Part shown: positions 2,149-27,382 of the stretch, piece by piece
Numbering within the stretch: position 1 is the first letter of the stretch
Layout: each line of letters opens with the position of its first letter
Assembly (NCBI RefSeq): GCF_028595285.1
Contig: NZ_JAQQXQ010000002.1
Location: forward strand, 248,001-312,000
DNA: 64,000 nucleotides
Direction of reading: 5' to 3'
Origin: Erythrobacter fulvus
Lineage (GTDB): Bacteria; Pseudomonadota; Alphaproteobacteria; Sphingomonadales; Sphingomonadaceae
Notes under the pieces: model-generated
Told to the model about the DNA's origin: nothing
What the model saw: only the letters and a program-made list of their open reading frames with translations
Database searches by the model: none
Translations under genes and position numbers: made by a program

Positions 2149-2445
2149 ACAGCGAGTGAATAAATGATGCGCCTCTATTACGTGCCCTTGGAAACGATTA
2201 CACGTAGGCAAAATAATCATAATATCAGCTCCTGAACCACGCGCTTCATGTCCATTTGATGCCAATACGATATCGAAAAGAGGATTTCTTGGAACATTTC
2301 CGCATATGCAACTATCGAGGATTTCTGCGGGTTTCAGGGGTATTGAGACAGAAATTGCTTACAAATTTTTCATAAATTTCTCGATCCACGCAAAATTCCT
2401 GTTGAAGCAGCATTCATTTCTCACATATCCTTTATGCAGACAGTA

Positions 2446-2457
2446 ATCATCGATGAT
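2446..2457. promoter_or_regulatory. 12-bp perfect palindrome upstream of TraK-like gene
   Basis: ATCATCGATGAT (2446-2457) sits inside a longer imperfect symmetry bounded by CAGT and ACTG (2441-2465), about 32 bp before the start at 2490. It is a likely operator or protein-binding site for the transfer genes. Confidence 0.4.
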
Positions 2458-2489
2458 GATTGACTGTATTAAATTGAAGGATAGTGATC

Positions 2490-3077
2490 ATGGAAGTTCC
2501 AGACGAACTCAAGGCAGACTCCGGTATCAAAAGTCATGTTCGTGATGCGATTCGTCCGCATCTCGACTTCATCGCTGAATGCAAATCTAAAGGCATTTCC
2601 GAAGCTGCTATCTATCGGCACCTGCTCAAGAAGGGATACAGCGTCGGATCGCGGAGCGGCTTTGGAGCAGCTCTCAAGTTTCTTCTCAAGGAACAACAGG
2701 AAAAGGGCACCGACAGGGTGCCTGACAGTCGGCTTGCGCCATCGGCGGGTTCTGCGTCGCCTCATCCGCAGGCCGCTGTGCCATCAGCCGAAGCTCGGGG
2801 CGCGAACCGTCCTGAGCATGCAGCGTCTTCAGTGACGAACAGGTTCGCCGATGAAATCACCACTTCGGGTGCCAGTGGGTGCGCTGACAGTCCGCGGTCC
2901 GCGTCTGAACTCGAAGCCGAGGTTGTAGCGCACCGGACTGAGGGTGCCGTCGGCGGGGAGAATGCGCCGCACCGCGAAAAGCCGCCCCGGACTTCTGAGC
3001 GCGAAAACCATGATGGGCCTATCAGATCAGAGCCATCCAGTGATGCGGCTCACAGCAAGTCTTGGAGGGTGGAATGA
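2490..3077 (+). CDS. TraK-like putative oriT-binding protein
   Basis: Small protein of 195 residues, likely a DNA-binding accessory of the conjugation machinery. The N-terminal 75 residues are compact and predicted helical, with ISEAAIYRHLLKKGYSVGSR and GFGAALKFLLKEQ. This layout resembles the IncP TraK helix pattern in which a GY..KTIWEHL-type segment precedes a YETF-type helix. The remaining 120 residues are rich in Pro, Ala, Ser, Arg and Glu and look disordered. ATG 2490 is preferred over GTG 2484 because GAAGG lies about 10 bp upstream of it. Its stop overlaps the start of the next gene by 4 bp (ATGA), so the two are translationally coupled. The family call rests on context and weak pattern similarity only. 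Confidence 0.55.
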   Translation: MEVPDELKADSGIKSHVRDAIRPHLDFIAECKSKGISEAAIYRHLLKKGYSVGSRSGFGAALKFLLKEQQEKGTDRVPDSRLAPSAGSASPHPQAAVPSAEARGANRPEHAASSVTNRFADEITTSGASGCADSPRSASELEAEVVAHRTEGAVGGENAPHREKPPRTSERENHDGPIRSEPSSDAAHSKSWRVE

Positions 3078-3865
3078 CCCCTACTATCCAAACCGCTCCG
3101 CTCCTCGTCTGCGCGATGGCCGACCGAGCCGGCCAGGGATGTTCAACTATCACGGCGATGGCTGCCAGTGCCGGCTCTATCGGGCACGGACCGATCCTCG
3201 TTGGTTCTGTCGGACAGGATCCATATGCTCCTCCGCTTAGGGGCGCCAAGGAGGTGGTCATCCCATCGGAAGTCGAGCCATCCGACGCCGCCTCTATCAT
3301 CAAAGCGTTTGCTGGTCGTCGGTGTTTCCTCGACGTCGCCAGTGGCGTCATGGACAGTGATGCCCCGGCCGCAAAAACAATGCGAGAGATCATGACCAAC
3401 GCCGATGCCTGCGGCTATTGCGTGGTGGCATTGCTTCCTGCACGCTCGGACGATCCAGAAGCCATTCGAGCGGCGGTCGAACTCGGTAAGAGTCTTCCTG
3501 ACGTCCAGAAGATTGTCGTCCGCAACGACATAACCGGCACTCACTCCCGCTCATTTGCTCCGTCTCCGTATCCCTGCGTCGACGTTGCTTACCTTGGCGC
3601 CGGCTTCATCGACTTGGCTTGGGCCTCCGACAACTGGTTCTTCCTGAACCTTCAGGGCCCTGGGTCGGGCGTGGCCCAACTCTGCCTCCTCGCCTGGATG
3701 AGAAGGTTGACCAATCAGCTGGCTTCCTACGGCCTGTTCGCGGATATCAATGACGCTCTCAGCCCTATCGATCGCTTCGACGACGGTGGGTATGACCATC
3801 GCCGGATCAAGAGCATCGAAGATACCACTGACGAAGCTCTAAGGCGCATGGCGATCTCTTTTTGA
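3074..3865 (+). CDS. TraL/StbB-like ParA-family protein with degenerate Walker A
   Basis: 263-residue protein with the fold pattern of MinD/ParA-like proteins of conjugation operons (TraL of IncP, StbB of R388). The N-terminal strand-loop LLVCAMADRAGQGCSTITA stands where KGGxGKST should be, and both lysines are missing. The second strand CFLDVASGVMDS occupies the Walker B position. Later strands CVVALLPARSDDP and KIVVRNDI fit the Rossmann-like core. The start at ATG 3074 has GGAGG 6 bp upstream and overlaps the upstream stop codon. Loss of the Walker A lysines suggests it binds no nucleotide in the standard way and may act as a scaffold near oriT. The family name is inferred from neighbours and fold pattern. 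Confidence 0.55.
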   Translation: MTPTIQTAPLLVCAMADRAGQGCSTITAMAASAGSIGHGPILVGSVGQDPYAPPLRGAKEVVIPSEVEPSDAASIIKAFAGRRCFLDVASGVMDSDAPAAKTMREIMTNADACGYCVVALLPARSDDPEAIRAAVELGKSLPDVQKIVVRNDITGTHSRSFAPSPYPCVDVAYLGAGFIDLAWASDNWFFLNLQGPGSGVAQLCLLAWMRRLTNQLASYGLFADINDALSPIDRFDDGGYDHRRIKSIEDTTDEALRRMAISF

Positions 3866-3871
3866 GCGCGT

Positions 3872-3910
3872 AAGGCCCAGCCTGCATCATGGCGCTACAG
3901 GCTGGGCCTT
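3872..3910 (+). terminator. Strong hairpin, probable terminator of the TraK/TraL-like operon
   Basis: A perfect 13-bp inverted repeat (AAGGCCCAGCCTG at 3872-3884, CAGGCTGGGCCTT at 3898-3910) with a 13-nt loop begins 7 bp after the stop codon. Only a weak T-rich stretch follows, but position and stem length fit an intrinsic terminator. Confidence 0.8.
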
Positions 3911-3993
3911 CCGCTTTCGCGGCATTATATAGCAAGTGCACCATGGTGAGGACGTTAGTCGCCCTCGTGATGGCTGGCGTCATCGTTTGTGGG

Positions 3994-4887
3994 CTAGTCA
4001 GCGTCGTTGTGGAATGGCGCGAGACTCCACAAGACGTTGGCTGTCAGCACCCCTCCATTGGGCGGCTCTTGTGGCAAAGCACTCTCCAACTGGAAACAAA
4101 ACCGGGTGCGCCGTTCGAAGCCAAAGATGTCATGGTAAACGACTATTCCATAGGCATAAAGTCTCTTTAGCCCATCACGCAGTCGAATAAGGTCAGACTC
4201 CGAAACGTCAGACGAACTGTAAAAGGCCGCATTGACCTCGCCGCCGTTTGGAACGACATATGGTGTTGGCATCCCGATGCGCGGCGGTTCCCGTTGGTTG
4301 CCAAAGTGAGCTTCCGCTTCGTCTGGCGTGAACGCCACAATATTCCCCATATGGACACACTCATAAGCTGGCGTCTGCCCTCCGTTCTTTACTGCTGTGT
4401 TGACTTCGAAACGCCTGCCATCGGAGGTCTCGCGAGACGCAAACGAGCTCAATTCGATGGGTCCGAAGTAGAGATATGCGCGTAAAGCGCGCTCGTTGCT
4501 TTCTCTGCTTTGTTTAAGATCCTTCAAAATTGCCAGCAGAGCGCCGCCCGCCAGAAGCGTCTGAATTACGACCGCCCAGAACATCCAGTAAGCAAAAACC
4601 GCCATGGATTCTTGGGCGGCGAGCTCGCGCTGCTCGCGTTCATCGTTATTACGGGGCTTGGGTTTGGCTATTAGGCTCTCCGCGAGAGCGTCGATGCCCC
4701 GAACGTCAGCAAGACCATTTCGTGGGCTTTCGGCTGGATATGTCTGACCGCTATTGGGGCCTACGGACTGATAATGGCGCTTCTCGGGAGCGTAGACTGA
4801 GCCGTAGAACGCGCCAGCCCCGGTGGCGACCAGCAGTGCAGCTATCCCTGCAAATGCAGCGAGCACACCTCGATTTCCGTCAGACAT
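3994..4887 (-). CDS. Membrane protein of unknown function
   Basis: 297 residues. Two hydrophobic segments are clear: LAAFAGIAALLVATGAGAF near residues 9-28 and YWMFWAVVIQTLLAGGALLA near 99-120. A charged loop lies between them, and a soluble C-terminal half follows that looks beta-rich (RAYLYFGPIELSSF, VNTAVKNGGQTPAYECVHMG). I recognise no catalytic motif. Proteins of this layout, two membrane segments plus an immunoglobulin-like tail, are common as orphans on proteobacterial mobile elements. It reads against the flanking transfer genes. Start at ATG 4887 without a strong ribosome-binding site. Confidence 0.6.
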   Translation of the reverse strand: MSDGNRGVLAAFAGIAALLVATGAGAFYGSVYAPEKRHYQSVGPNSGQTYPAESPRNGLADVRGIDALAESLIAKPKPRNNDEREQRELAAQESMAVFAYWMFWAVVIQTLLAGGALLAILKDLKQSRESNERALRAYLYFGPIELSSFASRETSDGRRFEVNTAVKNGGQTPAYECVHMGNIVAFTPDEAEAHFGNQREPPRIGMPTPYVVPNGGEVNAAFYSSSDVSESDLIRLRDGLKRLYAYGIVVYHDIFGFERRTRFCFQLESALPQEPPNGGVLTANVLWSLAPFHNDAD

Positions 4888-5375
4888 TGAGCAAAGAACA
4901 CCGTTCTGGATTTACCGCGGCTAATCTTCTTCCTGATATGGGTATCAGAGTCCACAACCCCTGATCGGCACGCAGGCCGACTAACTAGGCATAGCTGATG
5001 TTGCGGCGCTTCAATTCGGCCTTGAGCATGTCATGCACGAACGGTGTCCGACTATTCTGTATACACCAACCATGCCGCACATGGGGCCAGCTTGAAGCAG
5101 TTGTTGATCGATGGTGCGAACAATATTTAGCCAGTGAAGAAAAAGTGTTTTGAGGCGCAATACCGCTAACTTGGGTTCCAAGTTAGCTTGCGACACTGCG
5201 GTGCATTCCTGAACTTATATTGATCGAATAGCATCGATAAAATCTAAGCGATATTCCATAGGATAGGTCGAGGGATTGGAATGAAAAAGGCGTAGGAAAA
5301 TAAATTCACAATTCCTTTCCTTATTACTTCCGATTGGCCGTTCCTCCATACTATAATGTGCATGGAGATACGCCC
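4888..5375. other. Intergenic region upstream of the relaxase
   Basis: About 490 bp without a supported gene. It is more AT-rich than its surroundings and holds the hairpin and nic-like site listed at 5165-5212. The promoter for the relaxase operon must lie here, but I cannot assign -35 and -10 boxes with confidence. Confidence 0.5.
5165..5212 (+). other. Candidate oriT: 10-bp hairpin plus ATTCCTG
   Basis: A perfect 10-bp inverted repeat with a 3-nt loop (GCTAACTTGG-GTT-CCAAGTTAGC, 5165-5187) is followed 17 bp later by GCATTCCTGAAC (5203-5214), one base away from the ATCCTG nick core of MOBP systems. It lies about 165 bp upstream of the relaxase start, a usual place for oriT. The competing candidate is at 2103-2148. 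Confidence 0.45.
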
Positions 5376-7958
5376 ATGCCAACCAATGCCCAAATGGAGA
5401 GAGCCGACGAACTCGCGGCGACCCGCACCAGGATCAAGCTGATCCAGGAGGGATTGCTCGAGCCCATCGATGGCAAGAGCAAGACCCTGCACCCCATGCG
5501 CTTCCGGACACGGAGCTGGGGTGACAGCGGGCAGCACGGTGGCGGCGTTCCCGATTATGGCATCGCTGCCACCCGCCAGATCCGGCATCGGACACCCAGC
5601 GGCGTCACTTCTTTTCACTTCGCGCATTCCGCAGTGACCAAGGTCACCTATCGCACATTGGTCGAAGGAAAGCCGCACATGCCGGGGGCTGCGGCCGCCC
5701 ATGGCCGCTATCTCGAGCGCGAAAGCGCAGTCGCCGATCTTATCACAGAGCAACAGGGGCAGGGCACCGAACGCGCGGCCGATGTGGACTCCTCTCCCGA
5801 TCCCGAAGGCATTTCCCCCACAAGCGCCAGCGCAGTTCAGCGTGGTGCGCCTATCCCCACGCAAATGGAGAACGACCATGTCACTGCCACCTCACCTTTC
5901 GACGCCTCCGACATCCAAACCATGGTGGAAGACCTCGGAACATCTGAGCCCCACCTTGGCAGCGTTGATGGAGAAGGATCCCTCGAAGACCCCGGACCCG
6001 ATGCCGATCTGTTCCTGCTGTCCGGCCGCGATCTGGTATGTGATCGAGGGGCAAGCGAGCGTCTTCTGCTCAGCCCTGAGGATGTATCCCTGGCGGCCGG
6101 GCCGGGATCTGAGCGACTGCGATGCCCGTCGAATGGCGATCAGGAAGCTCGAGGCAAAAAGGTAGAGGATGAGGATCTGACGCTTGGTGCGGCGTTCGAT
6201 CGCTACCTCACTCGGCCCTCAGCATTGGCAATACAGCCTGACCATTCGCGCGCGCTCATCACCAACATCGATGAGGATGACAAAGAGCGTGCCGGGTTCT
6301 GGGGACAGGTTGAGGAATACGAGCGCACCCCGAGCCCGGATACGATCGCGTTCCGCTATTGCGACTATCGCCCCTTCTGGGACGCGGTCTTGCTACAGTC
6401 GGACTGCCCGAAGGAGATTCGGGAAAAGATCGAGGGGCCACATCGGGACTCGGATAAGCCCATCGAAATCAAACACGGCACCAAGGTGCAGGCTTTCCTG
6501 CGCCGGCAACCGGGCTGGGTCAAACCCGGCCCGAAGAAGAGGAAGGCCAAGAAGGCGAAGACGCAAGAGCAGCCGGTAGATGTGGCAGAGGAGCCGCCGC
6601 CGATCGCAGAGGTCACGATCGGTCGGGGCGGCCGGACGCAATATCGGATCAATGGCGAATTGCCCGCCGAGCTCACTCCCAGTCAGAATTTTGCCCTCCT
6701 TCAGGACTTCGCCCGTGAGTTCGAGAGACGTGAGCTACCCTTTCTTGCAGTGATGCACGCCCCCGACCACCACAACCATGACCGAAACTGGCACTTCCAC
6801 TTGGCTTACTACGATCGACCTGTCCGGCGAATCACCGAGGCGGATATCGAACGGCTCGCGGCGAGGGGTTTCGATGTATCCCAGCTCTCGCCAGGCCAAT
6901 GGGACTTTACCGTCGAACTCAAGGTTCCACGTCGGACCGACAAGCGCACGACCTTCCCCCTGCGCCAGAACAAGGTAGCGGAGGTTTCACGTTCCAGAGC
7001 ATGGCCGAAGACCTTGAGGGTCGCTCTTGCCAAGGTCACCAACCGCCACCTCTCCGCCGCAGGGATCGCGCGGCGGGTTAGCCCTGAAACCTTTGAGGAC
7101 CTCGGCATCCCAGCCGATCCGCACGAGCACCTCTCCACCACCGCTAACGCGATGGAGACCAGAGGCGTTGCAACAGCTGCAGGGATCAGAAACGAAAACA
7201 AGCAGTGGGCGGCCATCCTGGCGCAGGCAGAGGCACGTTATCGGGCCGAGCTTGAAGCAGCCGAGACGCGCATTACCCAAACATTGTCCGGACAGTCCCT
7301 GGGCAATGGCGACGGCTTGGCCAAACATAAGGAGCTGCGTGTGCAGCTGGAGCAGGCTGCAAAGCTTCGGCGGGATGCCTTCCTCCTCGAGCAGGAATTG
7401 GAGCGTGCCCGATCGCGCGCGGTCATGGTGCGCGAGCGCAACCTCAAGCTGCTCAAGGCCGGCGAGGCCGATCCCAAGACGACCACTGCCAAGCGCATGG
7501 CCGAACATCGCTCGCTCGTCGCTAGCGCAACCCGCTATCTGATCTCGCTCGAGGAAGAGCTGGCCGATGTCACTATGCTGGCCGCCCGCTGGCGAGCCAG
7601 TGCCCGACGCTGCGATGCACGTGCTGCCGAGATCGAGAGTGAACTGAAGATGCCAAATGAACAGTCGGCGGATACCGGTAAGGCATTGTCAGGCCGCGAG
7701 CAGATCATTGATCGTATCGCAGCAGCGGTCATGCAGGCTCCGCCCAGTGACCAGTCATTGCCTGACCACCCACTGTCTCGCGCCGAGCAGGATCGTGCCA
7801 TCCAGCGCAGGATCGACGAGATCAAGGAGGAGGTCCGGAAGGAGAATGAGATGAAGCGGGCGGCGCCGAATCAGGCAGTAGAGCAGGGTCCGGATAGCGA
7901 GCAGAGCCGGCGCCAATCGCCGCAAATGCCCCATCCCGGGCTTGGGCGCGGTTGGTGA
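5376..7958 (+). CDS. MOBP-type relaxase (MobA/VirD2-like)
   Basis: Relaxase that would nick one strand at oriT and pilot it into the recipient cell. About 860 residues. Near residue 110, GAAAAHGRYLERE resembles motif I of MOBP enzymes, where the Tyr becomes linked to DNA (compare AHLRYIQRDG). Near residue 460, HNHDRNWHFHL gives the His-rich motif III that binds metal. About 350 residues separate the two, far more than usual, and this spacer contains a second gene in another frame. The C-terminal half is long, helical and charged. ATG 5376 is chosen because GGAGAT lies 7 bp upstream; TTG 5334 has no such site. The motif assignments are by eye. Confidence 0.8.
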   Translation: MPTNAQMERADELAATRTRIKLIQEGLLEPIDGKSKTLHPMRFRTRSWGDSGQHGGGVPDYGIAATRQIRHRTPSGVTSFHFAHSAVTKVTYRTLVEGKPHMPGAAAAHGRYLERESAVADLITEQQGQGTERAADVDSSPDPEGISPTSASAVQRGAPIPTQMENDHVTATSPFDASDIQTMVEDLGTSEPHLGSVDGEGSLEDPGPDADLFLLSGRDLVCDRGASERLLLSPEDVSLAAGPGSERLRCPSNGDQEARGKKVEDEDLTLGAAFDRYLTRPSALAIQPDHSRALITNIDEDDKERAGFWGQVEEYERTPSPDTIAFRYCDYRPFWDAVLLQSDCPKEIREKIEGPHRDSDKPIEIKHGTKVQAFLRRQPGWVKPGPKKRKAKKAKTQEQPVDVAEEPPPIAEVTIGRGGRTQYRINGELPAELTPSQNFALLQDFAREFERRELPFLAVMHAPDHHNHDRNWHFHLAYYDRPVRRITEADIERLAARGFDVSQLSPGQWDFTVELKVPRRTDKRTTFPLRQNKVAEVSRSRAWPKTLRVALAKVTNRHLSAAGIARRVSPETFEDLGIPADPHEHLSTTANAMETRGVATAAGIRNENKQWAAILAQAEARYRAELEAAETRITQTLSGQSLGNGDGLAKHKELRVQLEQAAKLRRDAFLLEQELERARSRAVMVRERNLKLLKAGEADPKTTTAKRMAEHRSLVASATRYLISLEEELADVTMLAARWRASARRCDARAAEIESELKMPNEQSADTGKALSGREQIIDRIAAAVMQAPPSDQSLPDHPLSRAEQDRAIQRRIDEIKEEVRKENEMKRAAPNQAVEQGPDSEQSRRQSPQMPHPGLGRGW
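5878..6165 (+). CDS. Small Cys-rich protein encoded in the +1 frame inside the relaxase gene
   Basis: 95-residue reading frame wholly inside the relaxase gene in a different frame. It has its own GGAG ribosome-binding site (5867-5870) 7 bp before its ATG. Codon third positions are mostly G or C in this frame, while the relaxase frame loses that bias over the same stretch, so selection seems to act on the small protein. The C-terminal part carries a pattern resembling small metal-binding proteins: PICSCCPAAIWYV, then SVFCSAL, then DLSDCDARR, giving five cysteines. Similar small CxxCPAAxWY proteins occur, to my recollection, in alphaproteobacterial plasmid loci, but the function is unknown. It may fold as a zinc knuckle. 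Confidence 0.6.
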   Translation: MSLPPHLSTPPTSKPWWKTSEHLSPTLAALMEKDPSKTPDPMPICSCCPAAIWYVIEGQASVFCSALRMYPWRPGRDLSDCDARRMAIRKLEAKR

Positions 7959-13910: not shown

Positions 13911-14899
13911 GCCAGCAGCCACCGTGCTCCCGTCCCGCGCCGGGCCAGCCACACAATGGCACCGACCATAACCAGGGGGCCGAGCGGTGGAACGGTGAAC
14001 CCGGCATAGACAGCGGCCAGAATTACGATGGCCACGGTCCAGTCAGCGATCAACTGGCTGAGGGCACGATAAGCGAAGATGCGCAAGGCGGTGACCACTG
14101 GCAGTATTGCAGCGATCAGCATCGCTACCGTTGCAGGCAGATAGGCCTGCGCCACCAGCAGCACGAGCGCTGCAGGCCACAACAGGGCAATCTGGATCGT
14201 CAGCCAATGGCGCAGCAGCGATGCACCGCTATGCCCCACCAGTGTCATGTAACGCACGACCCGCGCATTGACCGACCCCGTCAGCAGGATCACACTCAGG
14301 CCAAAGACCCCGATGACAATGGCATCGAGGTAATGCTTGGACGGCATGAGCAAGCCCAAGATGCCGACCACCACGGAGAGGGTCGCCGCTTTGATCAACG
14401 AAAGCCGAAAGCGGCCTAAGGACCGCAGGCTTCTGGGTCCAAAGCGGCGCCACCACTTGCGCACATACTCGCGCACGAAGGGGAACAGCAGACCCGCCGG
14501 CAACCCGCTTAATACCCCCAACACTATTCCGCTTGGATCGACCAGACCGAGCAGAGCAAACGCCCCCAACCCCATGGCAACTCCGGCCAGCATTAGCGTC
14601 CCAAGGAATGCGATCCCATCGCGGGCCCGCTGGGCATCACGGGCGAGAACGCCGTCCGTGCGATGGAACCACAAGCGTTCGATCAGCGCCTTCGCCAGAA
14701 TGGTGGCAAACAGTGAAGCGCCACCAAAACCGACAAGCTCGCGAAGGTCTTCGGGCAATGTCGTAAGCCGGACGCGCGCGAAGAGGGCGAGGACGGGCAC
14801 AAGAATGACAAGCGTTAACCCGTCACTCGCACGCCTGCTCAACCCCCGCACGACAGACCAAGCAATTGCGGCATCATGTTTAACAAGAGCAAAGCGCAA
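13907..14899 (-). CDS. ABC transporter permease-like membrane protein
   Basis: 330 residues with about eight hydrophobic segments, for example LTLVILVPVLALFARV, GIAFLGTLMLAGVAMGLGAFALLGL and VAMLIAAILPVVTALRIF. A long basic loop REYVRKWWRRFGPRSLRSL lies between. It is directly upstream of and overlaps the ATP-binding gene, so it is the membrane half of the same transporter. No in-frame ATG is available near the beginning; TTG 14899 is the best start and its ribosome-binding site is weak. Confidence 0.75.
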   Translation of the reverse strand: MRFALVKHDAAIAWSVVRGLSRRASDGLTLVILVPVLALFARVRLTTLPEDLRELVGFGGASLFATILAKALIERLWFHRTDGVLARDAQRARDGIAFLGTLMLAGVAMGLGAFALLGLVDPSGIVLGVLSGLPAGLLFPFVREYVRKWWRRFGPRSLRSLGRFRLSLIKAATLSVVVGILGLLMPSKHYLDAIVIGVFGLSVILLTGSVNARVVRYMTLVGHSGASLLRHWLTIQIALLWPAALVLLVAQAYLPATVAMLIAAILPVVTALRIFAYRALSQLIADWTVAIVILAAVYAGFTVPPLGPLVMVGAIVWLARRGTGARWLLA

Positions 14900-15005
14900 G
14901 GGCGTTCCAGCAGTTCCAGCGATAATTTCCGACGCGGAAGCAGAAGATTAACATCGGATCCTTCACTGACAATGCCATTCCTTCCAGCTTGAGCCGCCGT
15001 TCCGA

Positions 15006-15114
15006 AAACCACCCACGAGTTGCCATAAGCCGGGCCGGCACGCGATCCCAAAAGCGGCGTGGCGGCTTTGCCCCGCTTCTGGAAAAAACCTGCCATTCGG
15101 GAATCGACCCCATT
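15006..15114 (+). repeat. Dispersed intergenic repeat, copy C
   Basis: The fullest copy: AACCACCCACGAGTTGCCAT, then CGATCCCAAAAGCGGCGTGG, then GGAAAAAACCTGCCATTCGG, ending AATCGACCCCATT. It lies just before the secreted-protein gene at 15148. Confidence 0.65.
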
Positions 15115-15147
15115 GTGATCATTCATGATCTGCGTCATTTCGCACTA

Positions 15148-15696
15148 ATGAGATTCCTATCTGCCCTTCTAGCTTGCGCCATTACGTCTTCTTCAGCGGC
15201 TGCGCTCGCAGCGCCAGACGCTCGTGCACAAGATGCAGCTGATGCATTTTCGCAGCTATGCGTATCGATGTTCATTGGCGGCAAGGCGGGCGCCGACCCA
15301 AAGCGGTTCGACGTAACCAAGCTTGACGATGCTACCCGCAAGCAAATCAAGCCAGACATCAAAGCTTCAACGCTCTGGGACGTGCACGCGAAGGCTTCGG
15401 ACGCATCGATGCTGGTGCACTACGAGCCGTCGGGCATGTGCGTGGTCGAGATTGCAGAAGCGGATGAAGCTTCTGTCCAGAGCGCAGTTGCGCAAGCTGC
15501 CGCCGACGCTGCCGCATCGCTCGACACGACTGTCATCGCACAAGCCGGCGAGACGCGCCAAGTCGGGGGGCTGGAAGCAACCACCTCTTCTTGGCGCTTC
15601 CGGTCGGAAGGCCGTGAAGTGTTGATTATGGTCACGACGCTGCCGGTTTCGAAGTTCATGATCCAGCACGTGTTGACGGCCTCATACGTCCGCTAA
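15148..15696 (+). CDS. Secreted protein of unknown function
   Basis: 182 residues. A signal peptide (MRFLSALLACAITSSSAAALAAPDARA) is followed by an alpha/beta domain with DAFSQLCVSMFIGGKAGAD near the mature N-terminus and a C-terminal EVLIMVTTLPVSKF. Two cysteines (about residues 35 and 101) could form a disulfide. The layout resembles small periplasmic proteins of sphingomonads in which an NMCxxxF-type start is common. No catalytic motif. ATG 15148 chosen because it begins the signal peptide; upstream DNA is repeat copy C. Confidence 0.65.
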   Translation: MRFLSALLACAITSSSAAALAAPDARAQDAADAFSQLCVSMFIGGKAGADPKRFDVTKLDDATRKQIKPDIKASTLWDVHAKASDASMLVHYEPSGMCVVEIAEADEASVQSAVAQAAADAAASLDTTVIAQAGETRQVGGLEATTSSWRFRSEGREVLIMVTTLPVSKFMIQHVLTASYVR

Positions 15697-15750
15697 CCAC
15701 CCATCCTCGGCCATAAGCGGCGGGCCGATGCGCTCCCAAAAGCCGCCCTT
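15695..15750 (+). repeat. Dispersed intergenic repeat, copy D (5' part only)
   Basis: AACCACCCATCCTCGGCCATAAGCGG followed by GCTCCCAAAAGCCGCC matches the first half of copy C. The second half with the GACCCCA ending is missing. Confidence 0.5.
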
Positions 15751-15872
15751 TCGCGTGAGTGCGCCTGAGCCGCCAAAGACGGCTATCACTCTCCACCTGG
15801 AGCGCCACAGCAATGTGGTCAGTTCGGCGCCCGTTCTTTCCTTTTGGCCAATCAAGGCCATGGAGAAAGATG

Positions 15873-16505
15873 ATGACCTACTCTCACCTCGACCCGGCCA
15901 TGCAGAACCGGGTCTCGTGGAATGCTGGCAGAACCGTCGGCACCAAGCGGCCACTTACCCAAAAGCAGATTTGGGCGATACGGTTCTTCCTTGATCGCGA
16001 GGAGCGGCTCCGCGACCGTGCCCTGTTCGACCTTGCAATCGACAGCAAGCTGCGGGGCTGCGATCTGGTGAAGCTCAAGATCGGTGACCTCGTGGCCGGA
16101 TCTGAAGTCCGCGACCGCGCAATGATCATCCAGCGGAAGACCGGACGACCTGTGCAATTTGAAATCACCGCCGACGCTCGCACGAGCCTGGCAACGTGGC
16201 TGCTGCGCCGTGGCGGCACCATTGATGATTTCGTTTTCCCAAGCCGAATCCAGTCCGGCCAACCGATGAGCACACGGCAATATGCTCGCCTCGTCGATGA
16301 GTGGGTCACCGCGGTCGGGTTGCGGCGGGAAGACTACGGCACCCATTCCATGCGGCGCACCAAGGCGGCCATGATCTACCGGACGACCGGAAATCTGCGT
16401 GCAGTGCAGATCCTGCTGGGCCATTCCAAGATCGAGAATACAGTCCGGTATCTCGGGGTCGACGTCGAGGACGCACTTGTCCTCGCGGAGCGCATTGAGA
16501 TATGA
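15873..16505 (+). CDS. Short tyrosine recombinase/integrase
   Basis: 210 residues, shorter than most phage integrases and lacking an arm-binding domain. The catalytic residues can be placed: Arg in IDSKLRGCDLVKL, Lys in QRKTGRPV, the His-x-x-Arg box in THSMRRTKAAM, His in LLGHSKIE and the nucleophile Tyr in NTVRYLG. Start at ATG 15873, six bases after GGAGA; ATG 15870 is in frame but too close. Stand-alone short recombinases of this type are common on alphaproteobacterial plasmids and islands. Whether it moves a nested element or is a relic is unknown. Confidence 0.88.
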   Translation: MTYSHLDPAMQNRVSWNAGRTVGTKRPLTQKQIWAIRFFLDREERLRDRALFDLAIDSKLRGCDLVKLKIGDLVAGSEVRDRAMIIQRKTGRPVQFEITADARTSLATWLLRRGGTIDDFVFPSRIQSGQPMSTRQYARLVDEWVTAVGLRREDYGTHSMRRTKAAMIYRTTGNLRAVQILLGHSKIENTVRYLGVDVEDALVLAERIEI

Positions 16506-16518
16506 CACTGCTGGCGGC

Positions 16519-16560
16519 CGTCGGACGGGCTCCGATGGCCGCTTTTGTCGAAGTCCGACG
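16519..16560 (+). terminator. Inverted repeat after the short integrase
   Basis: CGTCGGAC (16519-16526) and GTCCGACG (16553-16560) form an 8-bp stem 13 bp after the stop codon. It may act as a terminator; no clear T-run follows. Nothing else is evident up to 16725. Confidence 0.4.
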
Positions 16561-16725
16561 ACCATCGAATCGGCAACAGCTGGATGGAATATCGCCGTCT
16601 CTAAGATCACAATGCGCCAGAGGGCGGCTTGGGTTGCGCTACACGCCTGCTACGACGTTGTTCTCAATCCATGAGTTGTGTCCGGAAGAAACGTGAATTG
16701 AGACAATACATCGGAGCCCCCTCAA

Positions 16726-18351
16726 ATGTATATCCAGCGGCTTGTTTTTGGAACTCTGTTGGCGCTCGCAAGCGCTTCACGACTTCAGGCGGAGGAACAG
16801 TCGGTCGCTACGGGTGAACTGGACATACGAGAGACCGCGAGCAGGGACGCGCCGGGTTCTTTCCATCTTCGTTATTCTTTCCCAGAAGCCATCGGAGAGG
16901 GCGACAAGATCTACTTACCGGACCGGTGGGGCGAAGCCAATGGGCTCAGCGCATTGATCACCTTAGATCAACGGCCTTCGTCGTCTTGGCAACGGATCGC
17001 GAATGAGCAGCTAAGAGCATTAAAATCAACTCAGCAGCTAAATTATATTATAGCACCCTTGCCACTTTCGAAAGCTTACGACTTCCGCGTTCCCGTTAGC
17101 GGAAAAAAATGGTCATTTGCGTTCGGTCCTTCAATTATTTTGCCGCAAGTGCCTGTAGGTCGCTATAAGGTCGTTGCTGATCCAGCGCTATTTTCAAACA
17201 TCCTTCCAAGACACTCGACCCCTATTGCGAACAATCAACTGTCTGACACTTTCTTTTTGATTGGGGAAGGTCTTCACTATGAAGATACACGCCTGCAAAG
17301 CGGTCAGTTGGTTCGGAAAGCATGGGCAACTGGCCTATCGCCAGCGCAGGTTTCCTCGTTCAAGATCATTGGCGAAGCGGTCCAAGATATTATAGCGGCA
17401 ACAGGAACATGGCCGGATGTTTACTCAGTTGCACTAATTCCATTCATTCGGCCTGATCACGCATCAGCATTCCAAGGCACCGCCGTCAGGGACGGTATGG
17501 CAATAATGCTTTCTGGAGATAGCAAGCTAACGGACCATCGCCTAGCACTATACCATGAGGTTGCTCATCAAATCACTGGCTACGAGCTAGGCACATTAGG
17601 AAGCAACGGTGTTTCTGAAGCAAATTACTGGTTTTACGAGGGCATGACCGATGCCATCGCTAGAATCGTTCTTTTCGAGAGGGGGCGGATATCTGAGGGC
17701 GATTATCGCGAGGGTTGGACTAAAGTTCTACAGTCGTTTGACGAGGCAAATGAAAAATTTGCAATTAATTCAGGTTCTGAACCCGACGAACGAGGCGTAG
17801 TTCCGGCTTACTACCAGTATTGGCGTGGGGCACTAATCGGTCTGGATCTGCATTTTCGTATACAACAAAATCGGCAGCAAAAGGATGGCCTTCTTTTTGC
17901 AGTCAGGCGAGCCGCCGAGATAAATCCCTCAAGATCACCGATAGAAAATTTTTTCGAAGCGCTCGATGAGCTCGATCCCTCGCTGAGGTTTACGGTAGAC
18001 AGTGATTTGGCAGACATTCGCAAATTGAACATCGTTGGTAATCCTGCCTATTCCGGCTGTTTGAAGATCGAGACTACTACCCAGCCTAAATATGAGCTGG
18101 GCTTTGAATTTAGCACACAATCTGACGGAACATTCCGCATCGAGAAGGTATCCGACGGATCGGCTGCAAAAAGGATGGGGCTACGTGAGGGAATGGTCGT
18201 CACAAAGATTTTGCAATCTTCAGGGGGGAACCCCAACAAACAGACGATCTTCGAGATCTCGAATGCTGGCAGGCCCACTGTCTTACAGTTCTATCCTCGC
18301 ACCGAGAAGCAGTATGTTTCCCGCTATTTCGATTCATGTAGGGCGATATAA
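16726..18351 (+). CDS. Secreted M61-like metallopeptidase with C-terminal PDZ domain
   Basis: 541 residues. A signal peptide (RLVFGTLLALASASRLQA) is followed by a beta-rich N-terminal part. The gluzincin zinc site is LYHEVAHQITG near residue 276, with the third ligand Glu likely in WFYEGMTDAIA about 25 residues later. The C-terminal 110 residues look like a PDZ domain (GFEFSTQSDGTFRIEKVSDG, AAKRMGLREGMVVTKI). This order matches the M61 glycyl-aminopeptidase family. The gene is clearly poorer in G+C than its neighbours, especially 17,000-18,100, so it was probably acquired separately as cargo. Confidence 0.75.
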   Translation: MYIQRLVFGTLLALASASRLQAEEQSVATGELDIRETASRDAPGSFHLRYSFPEAIGEGDKIYLPDRWGEANGLSALITLDQRPSSSWQRIANEQLRALKSTQQLNYIIAPLPLSKAYDFRVPVSGKKWSFAFGPSIILPQVPVGRYKVVADPALFSNILPRHSTPIANNQLSDTFFLIGEGLHYEDTRLQSGQLVRKAWATGLSPAQVSSFKIIGEAVQDIIAATGTWPDVYSVALIPFIRPDHASAFQGTAVRDGMAIMLSGDSKLTDHRLALYHEVAHQITGYELGTLGSNGVSEANYWFYEGMTDAIARIVLFERGRISEGDYREGWTKVLQSFDEANEKFAINSGSEPDERGVVPAYYQYWRGALIGLDLHFRIQQNRQQKDGLLFAVRRAAEINPSRSPIENFFEALDELDPSLRFTVDSDLADIRKLNIVGNPAYSGCLKIETTTQPKYELGFEFSTQSDGTFRIEKVSDGSAAKRMGLREGMVVTKILQSSGGNPNKQTIFEISNAGRPTVLQFYPRTEKQYVSRYFDSCRAI

Positions 18352-18663
18352 ATATACATGGGCGGGGTGCAGTCTTTTGGCAATTGTCGGCCTGTCTCCG
18401 CACCGCACTCTAGCATCCCCATCCATTCAAGTGCGTGCAATCGCGTGGGAGCTGAACCGCACGATTGCCAGCAGGGCCAGCGGCAACGGGAAGTCGCACA
18501 AACAATCCGAAGATATGGTCGCCACGATCAGGCAGCGCTGGTCGGAAACAATTTTGCCAAAGGAAAGTCGTCCAGAAAGGGGTCGAAATGAGAATTTCGG
18601 CTTTCGGCGAGAAACCCACCGAATCTGCCTGGCAGGTATCAGGATCGCGACGCGCCCGCGCTC
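18352..18663. other. Intergenic region, no gene supported
   Basis: About 310 bp. Short open frames exist in several phases but none shows a ribosome-binding site or recognisable motif. It may hold decayed coding sequence. Confidence 0.4.
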
Positions 18664-19143
18664 ATGACCGTAGCTGGGTGGAAAGCTGACTCGACAAAGT
18701 TTGGCGATAGCCGCATGCTCCGCTTAATGTCTGGATCTTCAACTTGGTTTCCGATGGCTGGGATTGGCGGTGCCGTCGTTGCGTCGATTATTTATCGACT
18801 TAAGGTTGGCAAGCCGATCTATCCAGAAATCGCACCGGACGCCCTTTTCGCCGAACGCAGAGCTGGAGGACCATGGGCATCTAATTGCCTGTTGGTTTCC
18901 GTAACAATCGAAGAACTTAGGATTGAGCCTGCATTTCCTTTCAACCTTATGTTTCTTCCCGAGATATGGGGAGCGGAATATCGCGTTCCTATAAGCGAAA
19001 TCAAAAGCGCTGAATTATCTCGGGGTTGGTTGATGAATACGAAAATCGGGTTGAAGGACGGTAAGACGATCTCGTTGAGGCTGAAGCTTCCTGACTCTTT
19101 CCTCCAAGCGCTCAAAACCGCACTAAGTCAGTCAAAATCCTGA
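18664..19143 (+). CDS. Hypothetical membrane-anchored protein
   Basis: 159 residues. One hydrophobic segment lies near residues 30-45 (MAGIGGAVVASIIYRL). The rest is a small beta-rich domain with LLVSVTIEELRIEPAF, AEYRVPISEIKSAEL and LKDGKTISLRLKL. The pattern of short strands ending in a helix (SFLQALKTAL) recalls a PH-like domain, but this is only shape. No strong ribosome-binding site supports ATG 18664; ATG 18715 is also possible. Confidence 0.45.
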   Translation: MTVAGWKADSTKFGDSRMLRLMSGSSTWFPMAGIGGAVVASIIYRLKVGKPIYPEIAPDALFAERRAGGPWASNCLLVSVTIEELRIEPAFPFNLMFLPEIWGAEYRVPISEIKSAELSRGWLMNTKIGLKDGKTISLRLKLPDSFLQALKTALSQSKS

Positions 19144-19149
19144 ACGGCA

Positions 19150-19260
19150 GCATTGGGGTCGCTTGCTGAACGGCAGGTTTTTTCCGAACCCCCAGTAAAG
19201 CCGCCCCGCCGCTTTTGCGATTGAGCCGGGGCACCGTTTAAGACCGATGATGGATGGGCT
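19150..19260 (-). repeat. Dispersed intergenic repeat, copy E (inverted)
   Basis: Read on the minus strand it gives GCAAAAGCGGCGGGGCGGCT, GGAAAAAACCTGCCGTTCAG and the ending CAAGCGACCCCAAT, closely matching copies B and C but in opposite orientation. Confidence 0.6.
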
Positions 19261-19329
19261 CGTATTGGAAGACCCGGCGCTGATATCGGCTTTGGGGCGA
19301 GCATAGATCGTTGCCAATTGGCCCCAGAC

Positions 19330-20322
19330 CTATGGCAGTGCGTCGAAGCGACGTCGGTATTCGTGAACCATCACCCGCAGCCTCTCAGGCTGTAGGACCT
19401 CGACCGAGGTGCCCCATGAATAAAGGTGCCAGCACATCTCCAGCAGGCCTGATGCTCGGAACCGGACAAGCAACGATCCATCCCGCTCTTCTTCGACCGT
19501 CTGTGTCGGGTGGAAAACGAATCGACGGGCACGAGCCGCGGCTTCGGGCGAAAAGCGCCAGACCACATCGCCATACTCGGCGGAATTCTCGTAGGAGCCA
19601 AAGCCGCGTTCGGCATGCTGGCGAATGTCGAAGCCGGCATCGAATTCGAAGCTCTCCGGCAAAACCTCTGCCTCGGCTATCTCCTCGACCCGGTAATGCT
19701 GCAGAGGGGCGGATATCGGCTTTGCCGTATCGCGGGCGACAAGATAGCGGCGCACACCTAGAAGCAGGCCGTGAGGTGCAACGATGCGGTCGACGGGCTT
19801 GGCCTGCCCTCGCTTGCGGTAGGGGAACCGGAGCAGGAACGGCCCCTTCAAGGCTTCGTAAATGGCGGTGTCGACCTCACGTATGGCTGCGGGTTTGGGC
19901 CCAGGCCGTGCAGCATGGCCAAGCGCCTCGAGGAGTGCCTCTTCATCGACAGCAAGCCGTGTCCCCTTCTCCGGCGGGACCAGCGCTCGGACCTTTTGCG
20001 CCAGGCCGCGGGCAAGATTGGCCTCCTGCAGCATACCCGCTTGCTCGAGTTGAGATATGCCGGCCGAAAGCGCTGCAAGCTCCTCAGACGAGGGGGACAA
20101 GAGCGCCGCTACATACCGCGCCGGGATATGCCATCGCTTCTTGCGATCCTCGCCCTCGCTGGCTTCGGTTTGGGGGAACGTAGTCTCAAGGGCCTCGGTC
20201 ATTCGCTGCGCTGTCCGGTAGACGCAGCCGAACTCCTCGACGATTTCCTCAAGCGACACGCCGCTGCGACGCGTCGCCAGCATCGCGAGCTTCAACAGGT
20301 CCTGAGCCTTGGCGAATGACAT
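19330..20322 (-). CDS. WYL-domain transcriptional regulator
   Basis: 330 residues. The N-terminal winged helix-turn-helix (LLKLAMLATRRSGVSLEEIV, then YRTAQRMTEALE) leads into a linker, then a WYL domain around residues 140-230 with RKRGQAKPVDRIVAPHGLL and GVRRYLVARDT, and a C-terminal WCX-type extension. WYL regulators sense ligands, probably nucleic acids or nucleotides, and many (BrxR, CapW) repress phage-defence genes. GGAGG lies about 9 bp upstream of ATG 20322. A short motif found three times nearby, once 14 bp upstream of this gene, is a likely operator. Confidence 0.88.
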   Translation of the reverse strand: MSFAKAQDLLKLAMLATRRSGVSLEEIVEEFGCVYRTAQRMTEALETTFPQTEASEGEDRKKRWHIPARYVAALLSPSSEELAALSAGISQLEQAGMLQEANLARGLAQKVRALVPPEKGTRLAVDEEALLEALGHAARPGPKPAAIREVDTAIYEALKGPFLLRFPYRKRGQAKPVDRIVAPHGLLLGVRRYLVARDTAKPISAPLQHYRVEEIAEAEVLPESFEFDAGFDIRQHAERGFGSYENSAEYGDVVWRFSPEAAARARRFVFHPTQTVEEERDGSLLVRFRASGLLEMCWHLYSWGTSVEVLQPERLRVMVHEYRRRFDALP

Positions 20323-20335
20323 CGAAATCCTCCAC

Positions 20336-20348
20336 GACAGCTTTTGTC
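20336..20348. promoter_or_regulatory. Operator-like motif, copy 1 (before the WYL gene)
   Basis: GACAGCTTTTGTC, a partial palindrome with GACA and TGTC arms, lies 14 bp upstream of the WYL start codon. It differs by one base from copies 2 and 3. Confidence 0.6.
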
Positions 20349-20504
20349 ATGTGGACCGGCTGTAGCCGAGGTCATGTCGCTATGCATCCGAATTATCGAG
20401 GAAAATTCGATTCTTTCGAGGTCTCGCCTGACGTGTCTGAAGGGCTGTAGTCGCGCCCACCGGGCATTCGACAATGGACTTCGCGCGTTCCGCAATACGG
20501 GCAT

Positions 20505-20517
20505 GACAGGTTTTGTC
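20505..20517. promoter_or_regulatory. Operator-like motif, copy 2 (before the ubiquitin-like gene)
   Basis: GACAGGTTTTGTC lies 47 bp before the start codon at 20565, where it would overlap or abut a promoter. It is identical to copy 3. Confidence 0.6.
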
Positions 20518-20564
20518 GTTGGTGTCTGCGATAATCCTCTCAACGGAAAAAAGGAGCATCACAG

Positions 20565-20825
20565 ATGGCTTACTGGGACCTCGGAATGAAGCACATCGTC
20601 GATGTTGACGGGCAGCTGCTCGCCATCGACGCTGACGTGATCGACACGACCAGACTGCTCGAAAAGGCAAAGCGGCCGACCGATAGGCATCTGGTCATGG
20701 TCCGTGCCGGGGAGCGGATTCTACTTCAACCGCGGCAGCTGGTCCGCCTCTCGAGGAATGAGGTCTTGTTCTTCGAAACGGATGAACGTGCAGCAGGCCA
20801 ACACGATTGGCGCCAGGCCGCCTGA
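20565..20825 (+). CDS. Small protein resembling a single multiubiquitin-type beta-grasp domain
   Basis: 86 residues. The central 60 follow the strand-helix-strand order of the bacterial multiubiquitin domain: KHIVDVDGQLLAID, a helix DTTRLLEKAKRP, then RHLVMVRAGERILLQP, QLVRLSRNEV and LFFETDE. Multiubiquitin domains typically end in such an ERFxT-type strand. There is no C-terminal Gly-Gly and no E1, E2 or JAB gene next to it, so conjugation is not indicated. GGAG lies about 8 bp before the ATG. An operator-like motif shared with the WYL gene lies upstream, suggesting WYL control. The fold assignment is from pattern only. Confidence 0.6.
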   Translation: MAYWDLGMKHIVDVDGQLLAIDADVIDTTRLLEKAKRPTDRHLVMVRAGERILLQPRQLVRLSRNEVLFFETDERAAGQHDWRQAA

Positions 20826-20848
20826 GGCTGCTGCTAGAAATTGAGCAC

Positions 20849-20861
20849 GACAGGTTTTGTC
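20849..20861. promoter_or_regulatory. Operator-like motif, copy 3 (before the SGRYV repeat gene)
   Basis: GACAGGTTTTGTC, identical to copy 2, lies 24 bp after the ubiquitin-like gene and 95 bp before the start at 20957. Confidence 0.55.
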
Positions 20862-20956
20862 TGGTTGAACTCGTATGTTCCATCGTGGCCCGCGATCCGC
20901 ATCCAAGAAGGTCGGCGGCGGGAAATGCTTTCAACTGGATCGTGAGGATGATTGGA

Positions 20957-21163
20957 ATGGCAAAGGGTGGTGGATTTCGCAGCGCAAAGAGCGGGCGCTA
21001 CGTGAGCAAGGCGGAGGGCCGCTCAAGCCCATCAACGACAGTTCGTGAGGCCCCGGGCAAGAGCGGGTCGTCAGGGGTCCGGTATCGTAGTGCCATCACC
21101 GGACGCTACGTCACGAAGAAGCATGGCAAGGCTAACCCGGGCACCACACTGCGCGAAAAGTAG
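20957..21163 (+). CDS. Small basic protein with two SGRYV repeats
   Basis: 68 residues made almost wholly of two tandem repeats: FRSAKSGRYVSKAEGRSSP plus STTVRE, and YRSAITGRYVTKKHGKANP plus GTTLREK. The pattern is (F/Y)RSAx(S/T)GRYV(S/T)Kxx(G)xxxPxTT(V/L)RE. Small proteins with this repeat are widespread in bacteria and carry no agreed function. ATG 20957 is preferred to ATG 20948, which overlaps the GAGG site. The gene follows the ubiquitin-like gene and has its own copy of the WYL-associated motif, so the three genes probably act together. Confidence 0.65.
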   Translation: MAKGGGFRSAKSGRYVSKAEGRSSPSTTVREAPGKSGSSGVRYRSAITGRYVTKKHGKANPGTTLREK

Positions 21164-21337
21164 CCTGCCTCACAGCCGCACAAATTTGGGTGCCGTCGTT
21201 GGTGACGGCTGCCCCGTGCAGCCTTCTTCACCGAGACTTTCCACAACTTACTATCTGTTAATATTGATCTTTTATCGACCCGGGCGTCGCTTCCGGATAA
21301 CGGGGCGCCGCTCATTTTGAGCACTTAAGGAGGAAAT

Positions 21338-24182: not shown

Positions 24183-25130
24183 ATGAACGAGATGAAGAGC
24201 AGCGCCGCCGGATCACCCGGCGGTGACGAATACGCACGCGGGGACGGGGAGGTGCGCACCCTGCGCCCGGCAAGGACGAGGGCGGAATGGCCGCCCGTTC
24301 CACCAGAGCAAGCGGACGGCCTGCGGCAAATCTGCCTGATCGATGTGGAGACCACGGGTCTGGATTGCACCCGGCACCGCGTGATTGAGGTGTGCGCTGC
24401 CCGGGTGCAGCTCGATGGCGCCGGGAATGTCGTCGGCATCCGCTCGATCGGCGAGGGGCTGGAGGATCCCGGCCATCCCCTGCCGCCTGAGATCGTCAAA
24501 CTGACCGGGCTCACCGACGCCATGCTGTCAGGCCAGCGGATCAATCGGCAGAGCCTGACCGAGCGCATCGCATCCTGCGAGGGCGTCATTGCCTTCAATG
24601 CGGGATTTGATCGTCCCTTCCTCGAGGCGCTGCTGCCGGATCTGCCGCGCATGAACTGGGGCTGCGCGATGAAGGATGTGCCTTGGCGTAGCCTCGGCTT
24701 TGAATCGGGACCGCAAAATTACTTGCTCATGCAGACGGGCTACTATCCGCCCTCTGCCCACCGGGCGCGGCAGGACGTGCTCTCGCTGACCCAGCTCCTT
24801 TCCCATACCTGCACGGATGGTGAGAGCGTGATGGCAAAACTGCTTGCCGCCATGGCGGCACCGGCCTGGCGCTTCGAGGCGACCCGCGCGCCCTATGATG
24901 CAAAGGATGCGCTCAAGGATCGCGGCTACCGCTTCCGCAAGCAGGGCCAGGGCGCGCTGTGGCATAAGCATGTGCGCCATGGCGAATACGATGCCGAGCT
25001 CGCCTGGTATCGCGAGACCATCCGCATGGAGCCGAGCATCGTCGAACTGCCGGCCACAGAGCGCTATCGCCACGAGCGCAGCTGGACGCCGGTCGTGCCG
25101 GAAGGCGGATGGCCGAAATACCTCAGATGA
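24183..25130 (+). CDS. DEDDh 3'-5' exonuclease (DNA polymerase III epsilon-like)
   Basis: 315 residues. Removes nucleotides from 3' ends of DNA by a two-metal mechanism. All three exonuclease motifs are visible: ExoI LIDVETTGLD, ExoII FNAGFDRPFLEAL and ExoIII SAHRARQDVLSL, with the catalytic His two residues before the Asp pattern. The first 45 residues are polar and may be flexible. The C-terminal 90 residues (YRFRKQGQGALWHKHV, then DAELAWYRETI) form an extra domain seen in sphingomonad relatives. It begins a plus-strand run of four genes that includes a second exonuclease-like gene. Confidence 0.85.
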   Translation: MNEMKSSAAGSPGGDEYARGDGEVRTLRPARTRAEWPPVPPEQADGLRQICLIDVETTGLDCTRHRVIEVCAARVQLDGAGNVVGIRSIGEGLEDPGHPLPPEIVKLTGLTDAMLSGQRINRQSLTERIASCEGVIAFNAGFDRPFLEALLPDLPRMNWGCAMKDVPWRSLGFESGPQNYLLMQTGYYPPSAHRARQDVLSLTQLLSHTCTDGESVMAKLLAAMAAPAWRFEATRAPYDAKDALKDRGYRFRKQGQGALWHKHVRHGEYDAELAWYRETIRMEPSIVELPATERYRHERSWTPVVPEGGWPKYLR

Positions 25131-26455: not shown

Positions 26456-26584
26456 CCAGCAGGCGAAGAGCGGGCGGACAGGTCCGCCGGACAGAACTGC
26501 CGAACGCCGACGGCGTCGAGCGGTCCCGCAATCATGAAAGAGGGAAGGGAGGAGTGGGTTCAACCCACAGAAAGGAAAATGGAA

Positions 26585-27382
26585 ATGACCAAGTTTACGT
26601 TCATCGATGTCGAAGCCGTCTGGGACGAGCAGCTGCATGAAGCCTATCGCGAGATCGACCCGCGGGGGGCTGCCAAGCAGAAGCGCAAGGGGCAGGTCCT
26701 CCACCGCCTGCCGTGCAAGCGCGTCATCGCAGCGGCCGCGTTCGACCTTGAGGTCGACACCAACGGCGCCATCAGTATCGGCGGGCTCTCCAGCTGGACC
26801 GAATACGATCACGGCGACGAGCGCGAGGTGGTCACGCAGCTGTTCGAGCATCTGCGCGCGCGGCCGCAGCATCATGTCGTGACCTATAACGGCCTCGCCG
26901 CCGAGGTGCCCCTCCTCACTCTCGCTGCGCTTGAACACGAGCTGGTCCTGCCAGAGCAGCTGCAGACCGGATCACCGTTCGTGGCCAAGAAGAATGGACC
27001 ATGGCGGCCGCATATCGACCTGGCGCTCGAGCTCAAAGGTAATGGCCGGGACTGGGCGCACCTGACCGAAGTCGGCCTGCGCTGCGGTCTTCCCTCCGCA
27101 CTGTTCGCGGGCAAGGCCGACATTGTGATGCCGAGCAACGCCGAGCAATGGCTGGCCATGCGTCAGCGCGTAAGCATGGACTGTGTGCTCACTGCCGTGG
27201 TGGCGCTTGCATTCTGGCGGGTCACCGGGCGGATCCGATTCGATCAGACCGCGATGCTCCATAACATCGCCAGCTGGTGCCTCCGCGCCGGAGTCGCAGG
27301 CGATATGCAAGCCGAGGCCTTGTCCGAGATGCGCCGGCGAATGCTCGAGCGGCTCCTGGAACAGCTGGATGAGGCGGCGTAA
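26585..27382 (+). CDS. PolB-like 3'-5' exonuclease domain protein
   Basis: 265 residues. The motif positions of the DNA_pol_B_exo2 type (PF10108-like) can be followed: FTFIDVEAVWDE at the N-terminus as ExoI, HHVVTYNGLAAEVPLLTLAAL as ExoII, and PHIDLALELKG plus MDCVLTAVVALAFW further on for the ExoIII region. ExoI reads DVE, so the first two metal ligands are present. ATG 26585 is chosen because AAGGA lies about 8 bp upstream. With the DEDDh exonuclease at 24183 it makes a two-exonuclease cargo module. Confidence 0.65.
   Translation: MTKFTFIDVEAVWDEQLHEAYREIDPRGAAKQKRKGQVLHRLPCKRVIAAAAFDLEVDTNGAISIGGLSSWTEYDHGDEREVVTQLFEHLRARPQHHVVTYNGLAAEVPLLTLAALEHELVLPEQLQTGSPFVAKKNGPWRPHIDLALELKGNGRDWAHLTEVGLRCGLPSALFAGKADIVMPSNAEQWLAMRQRVSMDCVLTAVVALAFWRVTGRIRFDQTAMLHNIASWCLRAGVAGDMQAEALSEMRRRMLERLLEQLDEAA

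Follow-up and report, generated by a model that had tools for sequence, protein, structure and literature searches.

The question raised by this locus is whether three neighbouring genes of Erythrobacter fulvus, preceded by copies of one sequence motif, are controlled jointly by the regulator encoded beside them and to what kind of genetic unit they belong. The genes lie in a stretch of 64,000 nucleotides of contig NZ_JAQQXQ010000002.1 (hereafter the window, to which all coordinates refer): a WYL regulator of 330 aa with wHTH, WYL and WCX parts (19330..20322, minus strand), an ubiquitin-like protein of 86 aa termed UBL (20565..20825, plus strand), and a protein of 68 aa made of two SGRYV repeats (20957..21163, plus strand, with another in-frame ATG at 20948). 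The answer that we favour, with a probability of roughly 0.72, is that a WYL activator of the DriD type controls a small regulon here, with related modules on plasmids and chromosomes.

The motif is one line of evidence for joint control. The three copies of the 13-mer reported in an earlier note on this DNA are present as exact GACAGSTTTTGTC, all on the plus strand, at 20336..20348 (site 1, which in relatives is the promoter site of a divergent nuclease gene), 20505..20517 (site 2, for UBL) and 20849..20861 (site 3, for SGRYV); the distances of 47 bp to UBL and 95 bp to SGRYV given in that note are correct, whereas the distance to the WYL gene is 13 bp instead of 14. The exact motif has 3 copies in the 3,111,689-bp genome (20 contigs), all of them at this locus (reversed control: 0), which answers the concern that it might recur by chance in unrelated DNA. 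With up to 2 mismatches, 8 matches were found in the 64-kb window, compared to a mean of 1.53 and a maximum of 4 in shuffled sequences. The looser pattern GACANNNNTTGTC was not enriched genome-wide (9 matches versus 9 in the control), indicating that the specificity lies in the full motif, or in the motif combined with a -10 element at fixed distance; this combination, searched in the same genome with up to 1 mismatch, gave 2 matches, corresponding to sites 1 and 2, and none in the control. Across 34 loci (557,113 bp, window included), the pattern GACA..TT.TG[AT]C occurred 58 times compared to 0.7 expected under a first-order model (reversed control: 1), a count that measures conservation and is not an independent test, since the same sites supplied the pattern, and gene content decided which loci were included.

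The assignment of the regulator to the WYL proteins was confirmed (Pfam WYL and WCX above cut-off), and its residues 4-323, covering wHTH, WYL and WCX, match DriD chains among the PDB sequences with an E value of about 2e-44. Its PDB relatives at E up to 10 comprise five distinct sequences, matched over the same aligned residues where they overlap; these entries are labelled only as WYL or DeoR-family proteins; PMC12340889 identifies 7TZV, which is among the five, as DriD. The phage-defence repressors BrxR and CapW, proposed earlier as analogues, are absent from the PDB sequences matched at E up to 10; that analogy is probably wrong, and the identification of the protein as BrxR or CapW is unsupported. 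No second WYL gene of this kind was detected in the genome at E up to 0.001.

As described in PMC12340889, Caulobacter DriD is a DNA-damage activator activated by ssDNA; it recognises the consensus ATACGAC-N7-GTCGTAT, its site lies over the -35 position at a constant distance from a weak -10, and it activates the operon divergent from driD, not driD itself. The locus resembles the Caulobacter crescentus DriD regulon in several of these respects: the regulator belongs to the same WYL family, the sites share the GAC-N7-GTC core and its spacing, they lie over the -35 position at a fixed distance from the -10 element, and a divergent operon is the putative target. There are also differences: the outer ATAC/GTAT bases are not kept at the window sites; several relatives use GAC-N7-GAC (a direct repeat, unlike the inverted repeat of DriD) or GTC-N7-GAC; and the regulon is local, in relatives is placed on mobile DNA, and has as putative targets a nuclease-helicase, UBL and SGRYV. 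At the level of sequence, the link between regulator, motif and genes is thus real and of the DriD type.

The promoter layout agrees with this relationship. Counted from the start of the site (position 0), a -10-like hexamer stands at +25 for two of the sites: GATAAT, preceded by GC, for site 2 (20530..20535, plus strand) and TATGTT for site 3 (20874..20879, plus strand). Sites 2 and 3 cover the -35 position, as at DriD promoters, and the site-centred -35 hexamers agree with TTGACA at 1 of 6 positions, as expected for an activator-dependent promoter. Site 1 is followed by a decayed element, the former -10 of the nuclease gene (20361..20366, plus strand; TGTAGC here, TATAGC in the Erythrobacter relative L023), whose GC-flanked reverse strand, GCTACAGC, could still serve the WYL direction. 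Scoring of the relatives for -10 likeness gave a maximum at +25 both for nuclease sites (16) and for UBL sites (20); for the 12 SGRYV sites, whose elements are weak, the maxima were at +26 and +25. The lists behind these profiles were picked by hand: the nuclease profile leaves out L016, L017, L027, L032, L037, L038 and L040, plus L011 and L012 (full loci, L062 and L061); the UBL profile leaves out L011, L012, L014, L027 and L040; and the SGRYV profile leaves out L016 and L044, in which the site is GACGCGATCTGTC.

The related genomes show what the locus is a part of. Among 199 family genomes, relatives of UBL are present in 4 and relatives of SGRYV in 7 (one of them, in G019, dubious at 34% identity), and both occur together in 2 of the 199, namely the genome of the window and G140, which has all four genes and sites before the nuclease and SGRYV. 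A pattern-based scan of the GTDB genome collection yielded 19 UBL loci. The WYL gene is present in 18 of them (the remaining one, L022, begins at a contig end inside the nuclease gene), although in L030 it is broken; a TM0106-family RecB-like nuclease-helicase is the partner gene in 16, and was not found in L030, L032 and L037. The usual order is WYL, divergent nuclease-helicase, UBL and, sometimes, SGRYV. The proposal of a new unit holds in that the genes are linked, and fails in that the unit is not the trio, since relatives place the nuclease-helicase between WYL and UBL. Judged by gene order, what the window holds is a mobile alphaproteobacterial module in reduced form. The suggestion of the earlier note that the three genes are controlled together by the WYL protein beside them is strongly supported at the sequence level, by a motif unique in the genome and by the conservation of its sites and -10 spacing in relatives.

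The missing member left a trace in the window. A 5′ remnant of the nuclease-helicase gene (20379..20461, plus strand) aligns to the start of the L023 nuclease gene with a score of 55, reached by none of 300 shuffles (maximum 26); against the whole L023 gene, none of 100 shuffles reached the score (maximum 36). No nuclease relative was found in the genome, in a search run without positive control. By this alignment, the window has lost the nuclease gene, deleted from between its neighbours, and has kept the regulator, UBL, SGRYV and the sites. A 3′ nuclease scar before site 2 was also considered and discarded (144 of 300 shuffles reach its alignment score), and only the 5′ remnant is claimed; the resemblance of YGHDRF here to YGGDRF at the nuclease end of L013 is no more than suggestive of a 3′ trace. 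In the relatives, the nuclease combines an RNase_H_2 part with an SF1 helicase part; its PD-(D/E)XK and Cas4-like matches are weak, and its best PADLOC match is MkoA, across the helicase part. In the open-access literature searched, TM0106 appeared in corrosion papers only.

The conservation of site 2 calls for a caveat. In most relatives read, the UBL site is GACAGSTTYTGAC and overlaps the last nuclease codons, so that part of its conservation may be due to coding constraint. The site and a -10-like element are nevertheless kept where UBL is separated from the nuclease end (L023, L039, L040) and where the nuclease is gone (L030, L032); in L037, also without the nuclease, the site is kept but the +25 hexamer is AAAACA. 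Among the UBL sites read, GAC-N7-GTC is found only in the window copy, a fuller palindrome than the GAC-N7-GAC of the relatives. The site before the nuclease in L038 is GTC-N7-GAC.

Plasmids provide a second view of the association, in this case between WYL and SGRYV. Of 72,556 plasmid records, 57 carry relatives of SGRYV and 56 relatives of this WYL protein (E up to 1e-10); both are present in 12, compared to 0.04 predicted by independence (relatedness ignored). The two genes are adjacent, within 350 bp, in 11 of these 12 plasmids (Shinella NZ_CP131131 included), the exception being Roseovarius indicus NZ_CP031599. Nine of the 11 adjacent pairs were read. SGRYV is directly downstream of WYL in eight, and a related site is present in the gap of every one: GAC-N7-GAC in six (read by eye and recovered by a pattern search), GTC-N7-GAC in one and GAC-N7-GTC in one; four of the eight also have GTC-N7-GAC before WYL. 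The genes of the ninth pair, L016, are separated by a DUF3892 gene, and the site before its SGRYV gene is the variant GACGCGATCTGTC mentioned above. The order WYL then SGRYV was seen on rhizobial and related plasmids (L018, L053-L059). Six of the eight loci are annotated, and in five of these the next annotated gene is a TIR gene.

Considering all SGRYV genes read, a site of one of the three forms precedes 13 of the 14 that have such a WYL gene (with one mismatch in L035, the full module of Sphingomonas sp. BK345) and none of the 5 without it in their flanks (Fisher p 0.0005, relatedness ignored). The flanks covered for the latter were 5 kb (L020, L021) or 1.5 kb (L043, L045, L046), the counts exclude L047 (32% identity), and, by our estimate, chance alone would place one of the three 6-base forms in roughly every sixth or seventh upstream region of 220 bp. 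The two repeats of the SGRYV protein described earlier were recovered. Of the two small proteins for which structure prediction had been suggested, UBL gave a recognisable multi-ubiquitin fold, whereas the model of SGRYV is weak (pLDDT 73.8, pTM 0.36, 4 sequences) and has no structure match at E up to 0.001.

The UBL model (AlphaFold, 18 sequences, pLDDT 80.0, pTM 0.68) is a single beta-grasp domain followed by a variable tail ending in Ala-Ala. Its best matches are bacterial multi-ubiquitin structures (9d5a, 9cd2, 9d5b, 9d59, 8u38 and 9ea8, the last titled BubA), with Z 8.9-10.1, rmsd 2.5-5.0 and 69-78 aligned residues, followed by ubiquitin variants at Z 6.4; the best Foldseek E value is 3e-4. 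The likeness to a multiubiquitin domain noticed earlier thus stands for the predicted fold and not for the sequence: UBL matches no Pfam or NCBIfam family above cut-off, has no PADLOC match, does not match Multi_ubiq (PF14452) at E up to 1, and was not linked by profile comparison to the Multi_ubiq domain of Rhizobium L014. Membership of UBL in the Multi_ubiq family by sequence was accordingly rejected, the predicted fold being what connects them. All 18 UBL proteins of the alignment, from which the near duplicates L027 and L040 were removed, end in Ala-Ala; three further ones have AA (L011, L013) or VA (L012) as their last residues. An AA end is a known signal for ClpXP, and one may guess that it makes UBL short-lived.

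The further claim that UBL lacks E1/E2 partners was upheld for DUF6791: a DUF6791 relative is absent from the genome, and the search found its positive control in the L014 plasmid. UBL is therefore like the BubA of Bub operons in that its predicted model fits multi-ubiquitin structures best, and unlike it in having one domain, no detected DUF6791 partner, an Ala-Ala end and no sequence link. The Rhizobium plasmid L014 has, at 1746-6939 of its locus, the same WYL and nuclease genes followed by Multi_ubiq, DUF6791-ThiF and DUF6527 genes, a set that probably represents a Bub operon. PMC13373217 reports that CapW or CapH+CapP occur in 219 of 544 Bub operons, that CapW and CapP are ssDNA-activated, and that phage protection by Bub operons is not demonstrated. 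A WYL gene near an ubiquitin-like gene hence has precedent, there with a repressor.

Links to defence come from the relatives. DrmD-like and SbcD-like cargo is typical of defence and repair islands. In L055, the TIR gene after SGRYV, the one TIR gene scanned, matches ThsB across its full length (PADLOC, 378 bits), and in L026 an extra site (3513) precedes a DUF4258 gene followed by a DrmD-like gene, also the one scanned with PADLOC. Extra sites were further observed before metallophosphatase (SbcD-like) genes in L017 (8052) and L038 (3243). Neither the ThsB-like TIR, which recalls ThsB of the Thoeris pair ThsA and ThsB, nor the DrmD-like gene, which recalls DISARM, is part of the window trio. 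The link to defence is indirect, through the related sites ahead of the ThsB-like TIR and DrmD-like genes of relatives, and for the window such a role is hypothetical.

Taken as a mobile, probably ssDNA-induced defence or repair regulon, which is our best reading, the locus would work as follows. The WYL dimer would be switched on, probably by single-stranded DNA arising from damage or phage infection, would bind the GAC-N7-GTC sites that cover poor -35 elements, and would recruit RNA polymerase to the promoters with a fixed-distance -10. In relatives it would turn on the nuclease-helicase, the orphan BubA-fold UBL and, in some, the two-repeat SGRYV protein; in the window, where the nuclease has been deleted, the regulator, UBL, SGRYV and the sites are what is left. 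A function in damage response or defence is likely.

The opposite sign of regulation has to be weighed, in which the WYL protein would be a BrxR/CapW-like repressor silencing UBL and SGRYV until ssDNA releases it. The site covers the promoter, and a repressor bound at -35 would give nearly the same picture; CapW and BrxR do act in this way next to immune operons (the Bub operons with CapW or CapH+CapP included), and the locus shares with the islands that they control a WYL regulator beside defence-type genes and repeated operator sites. It probably differs from them in the WYL lineage, which the comparison with PDB sequences places with DriD, and it differs in the site, since BrxR sites are 11-bp inverted repeats with a 5-bp spacer (PMC9122601), while those of the window have the DriD position and poor -35 hexamers. 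Activation is what we would expect, and repression is improbable. Another reading is that of a broken module, of which the three genes and the sites are left as relics that survive by inertia and do nothing together. It draws on the deletion of the nuclease, on its changed -10 and on the broken WYL gene of L030, which also lost the nuclease, and the remaining window genes may indeed be decaying after that loss. All three genes are, however, intact with low dN versus dS (dS near saturation; the WYL protein is 90.6% identical to its L023 relative, dN 0.06, dS 1.3-1.7), site 2 is more palindromic here than in the relatives read, and the nuclease-less L032 and L037 keep WYL and UBL. We regard inertia as unlikely, if less so than repression.

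Two other explanations concern single elements of the locus, and both fare worse. A role of UBL as a Bub-type modifier, conjugated by E1/E2 enzymes from elsewhere, would suit its multi-ubiquitin fold in the predicted model and the true Multi_ubiq, DUF6791-ThiF and DUF6527 genes that L014 has in the same place after the nuclease; the missing DUF6791 relative, the Ala-Ala end after a variable tail and the lack of a sequence link to the L014 domain make it very improbable. That the motif belongs to some unrelated regulator of the chromosome, or is a product of chance or of nuclease coding sequence, is suggested by the match of site 2 to the last codons of the nuclease in most relatives read; with a motif unique to the locus and conserved in related loci, and with related sites before SGRYV on plasmids with a DriD-like WYL gene, we give this almost no credit.

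The regulon of a DriD-type activator thus remains the preferred reading, and it connects mobile genes with the DriD pathway, which has been described in Caulobacter as a response to damage that is independent of SOS. The promoter box (site plus -10 at +25) is testable and usable for finding cargo, and two unannotated families, one of ubiquitin fold and one of repeat proteins, gain a regulatory context in which their functions become directly testable. A broader proposal, possible although doubtful, is that of a class of mobile DriD-controlled alphaproteobacterial immune regulons, in which the promoter box would move among cargo (nuclease-helicase, SbcD-like exonuclease, DrmD, TIR) and which would include two new proteins: an orphan BubA-fold protein that acts without conjugation and whose Ala-Ala degron keeps its lifetime short, and an SGRYV protein, expressed directly before a ThsB-like TIR and maybe its partner or brake. 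In the open-access literature searched, no paper joins WYL, RecB-like nuclease and plasmid, a result limited to this literature.

Phage collections contributed little: a pattern-based scan of IMG/VR gave no UBL relative, PHROGs at E up to 0.1 gave nothing for WYL, UBL and two SGRYV proteins, and SGRYV relatives were absent from 50,697 phage records, while IMG/VR contained two short single-repeat relatives of SGRYV. In the window, no tRNA genes were found in the 64 kb and no long inverted repeats of at least 25 bp at 14800-21300. A fusion of a helix-turn-helix domain with a C-5 cytosine DNA methylase behind it is encoded at 376-1596 (minus strand), an 874-aa ORF at 5334-7958 (plus strand) matches MobA/MobL relaxases, which points to mobile DNA, a tyrosine recombinase (Phage_integrase) gene lies upstream of the trio at 15759-16505 (plus strand), and two exonuclease-like genes (RNase_T, PolB-exo-like) are located a few kb downstream of it, at 24183-25130 and 26534-27382 (plus strand).
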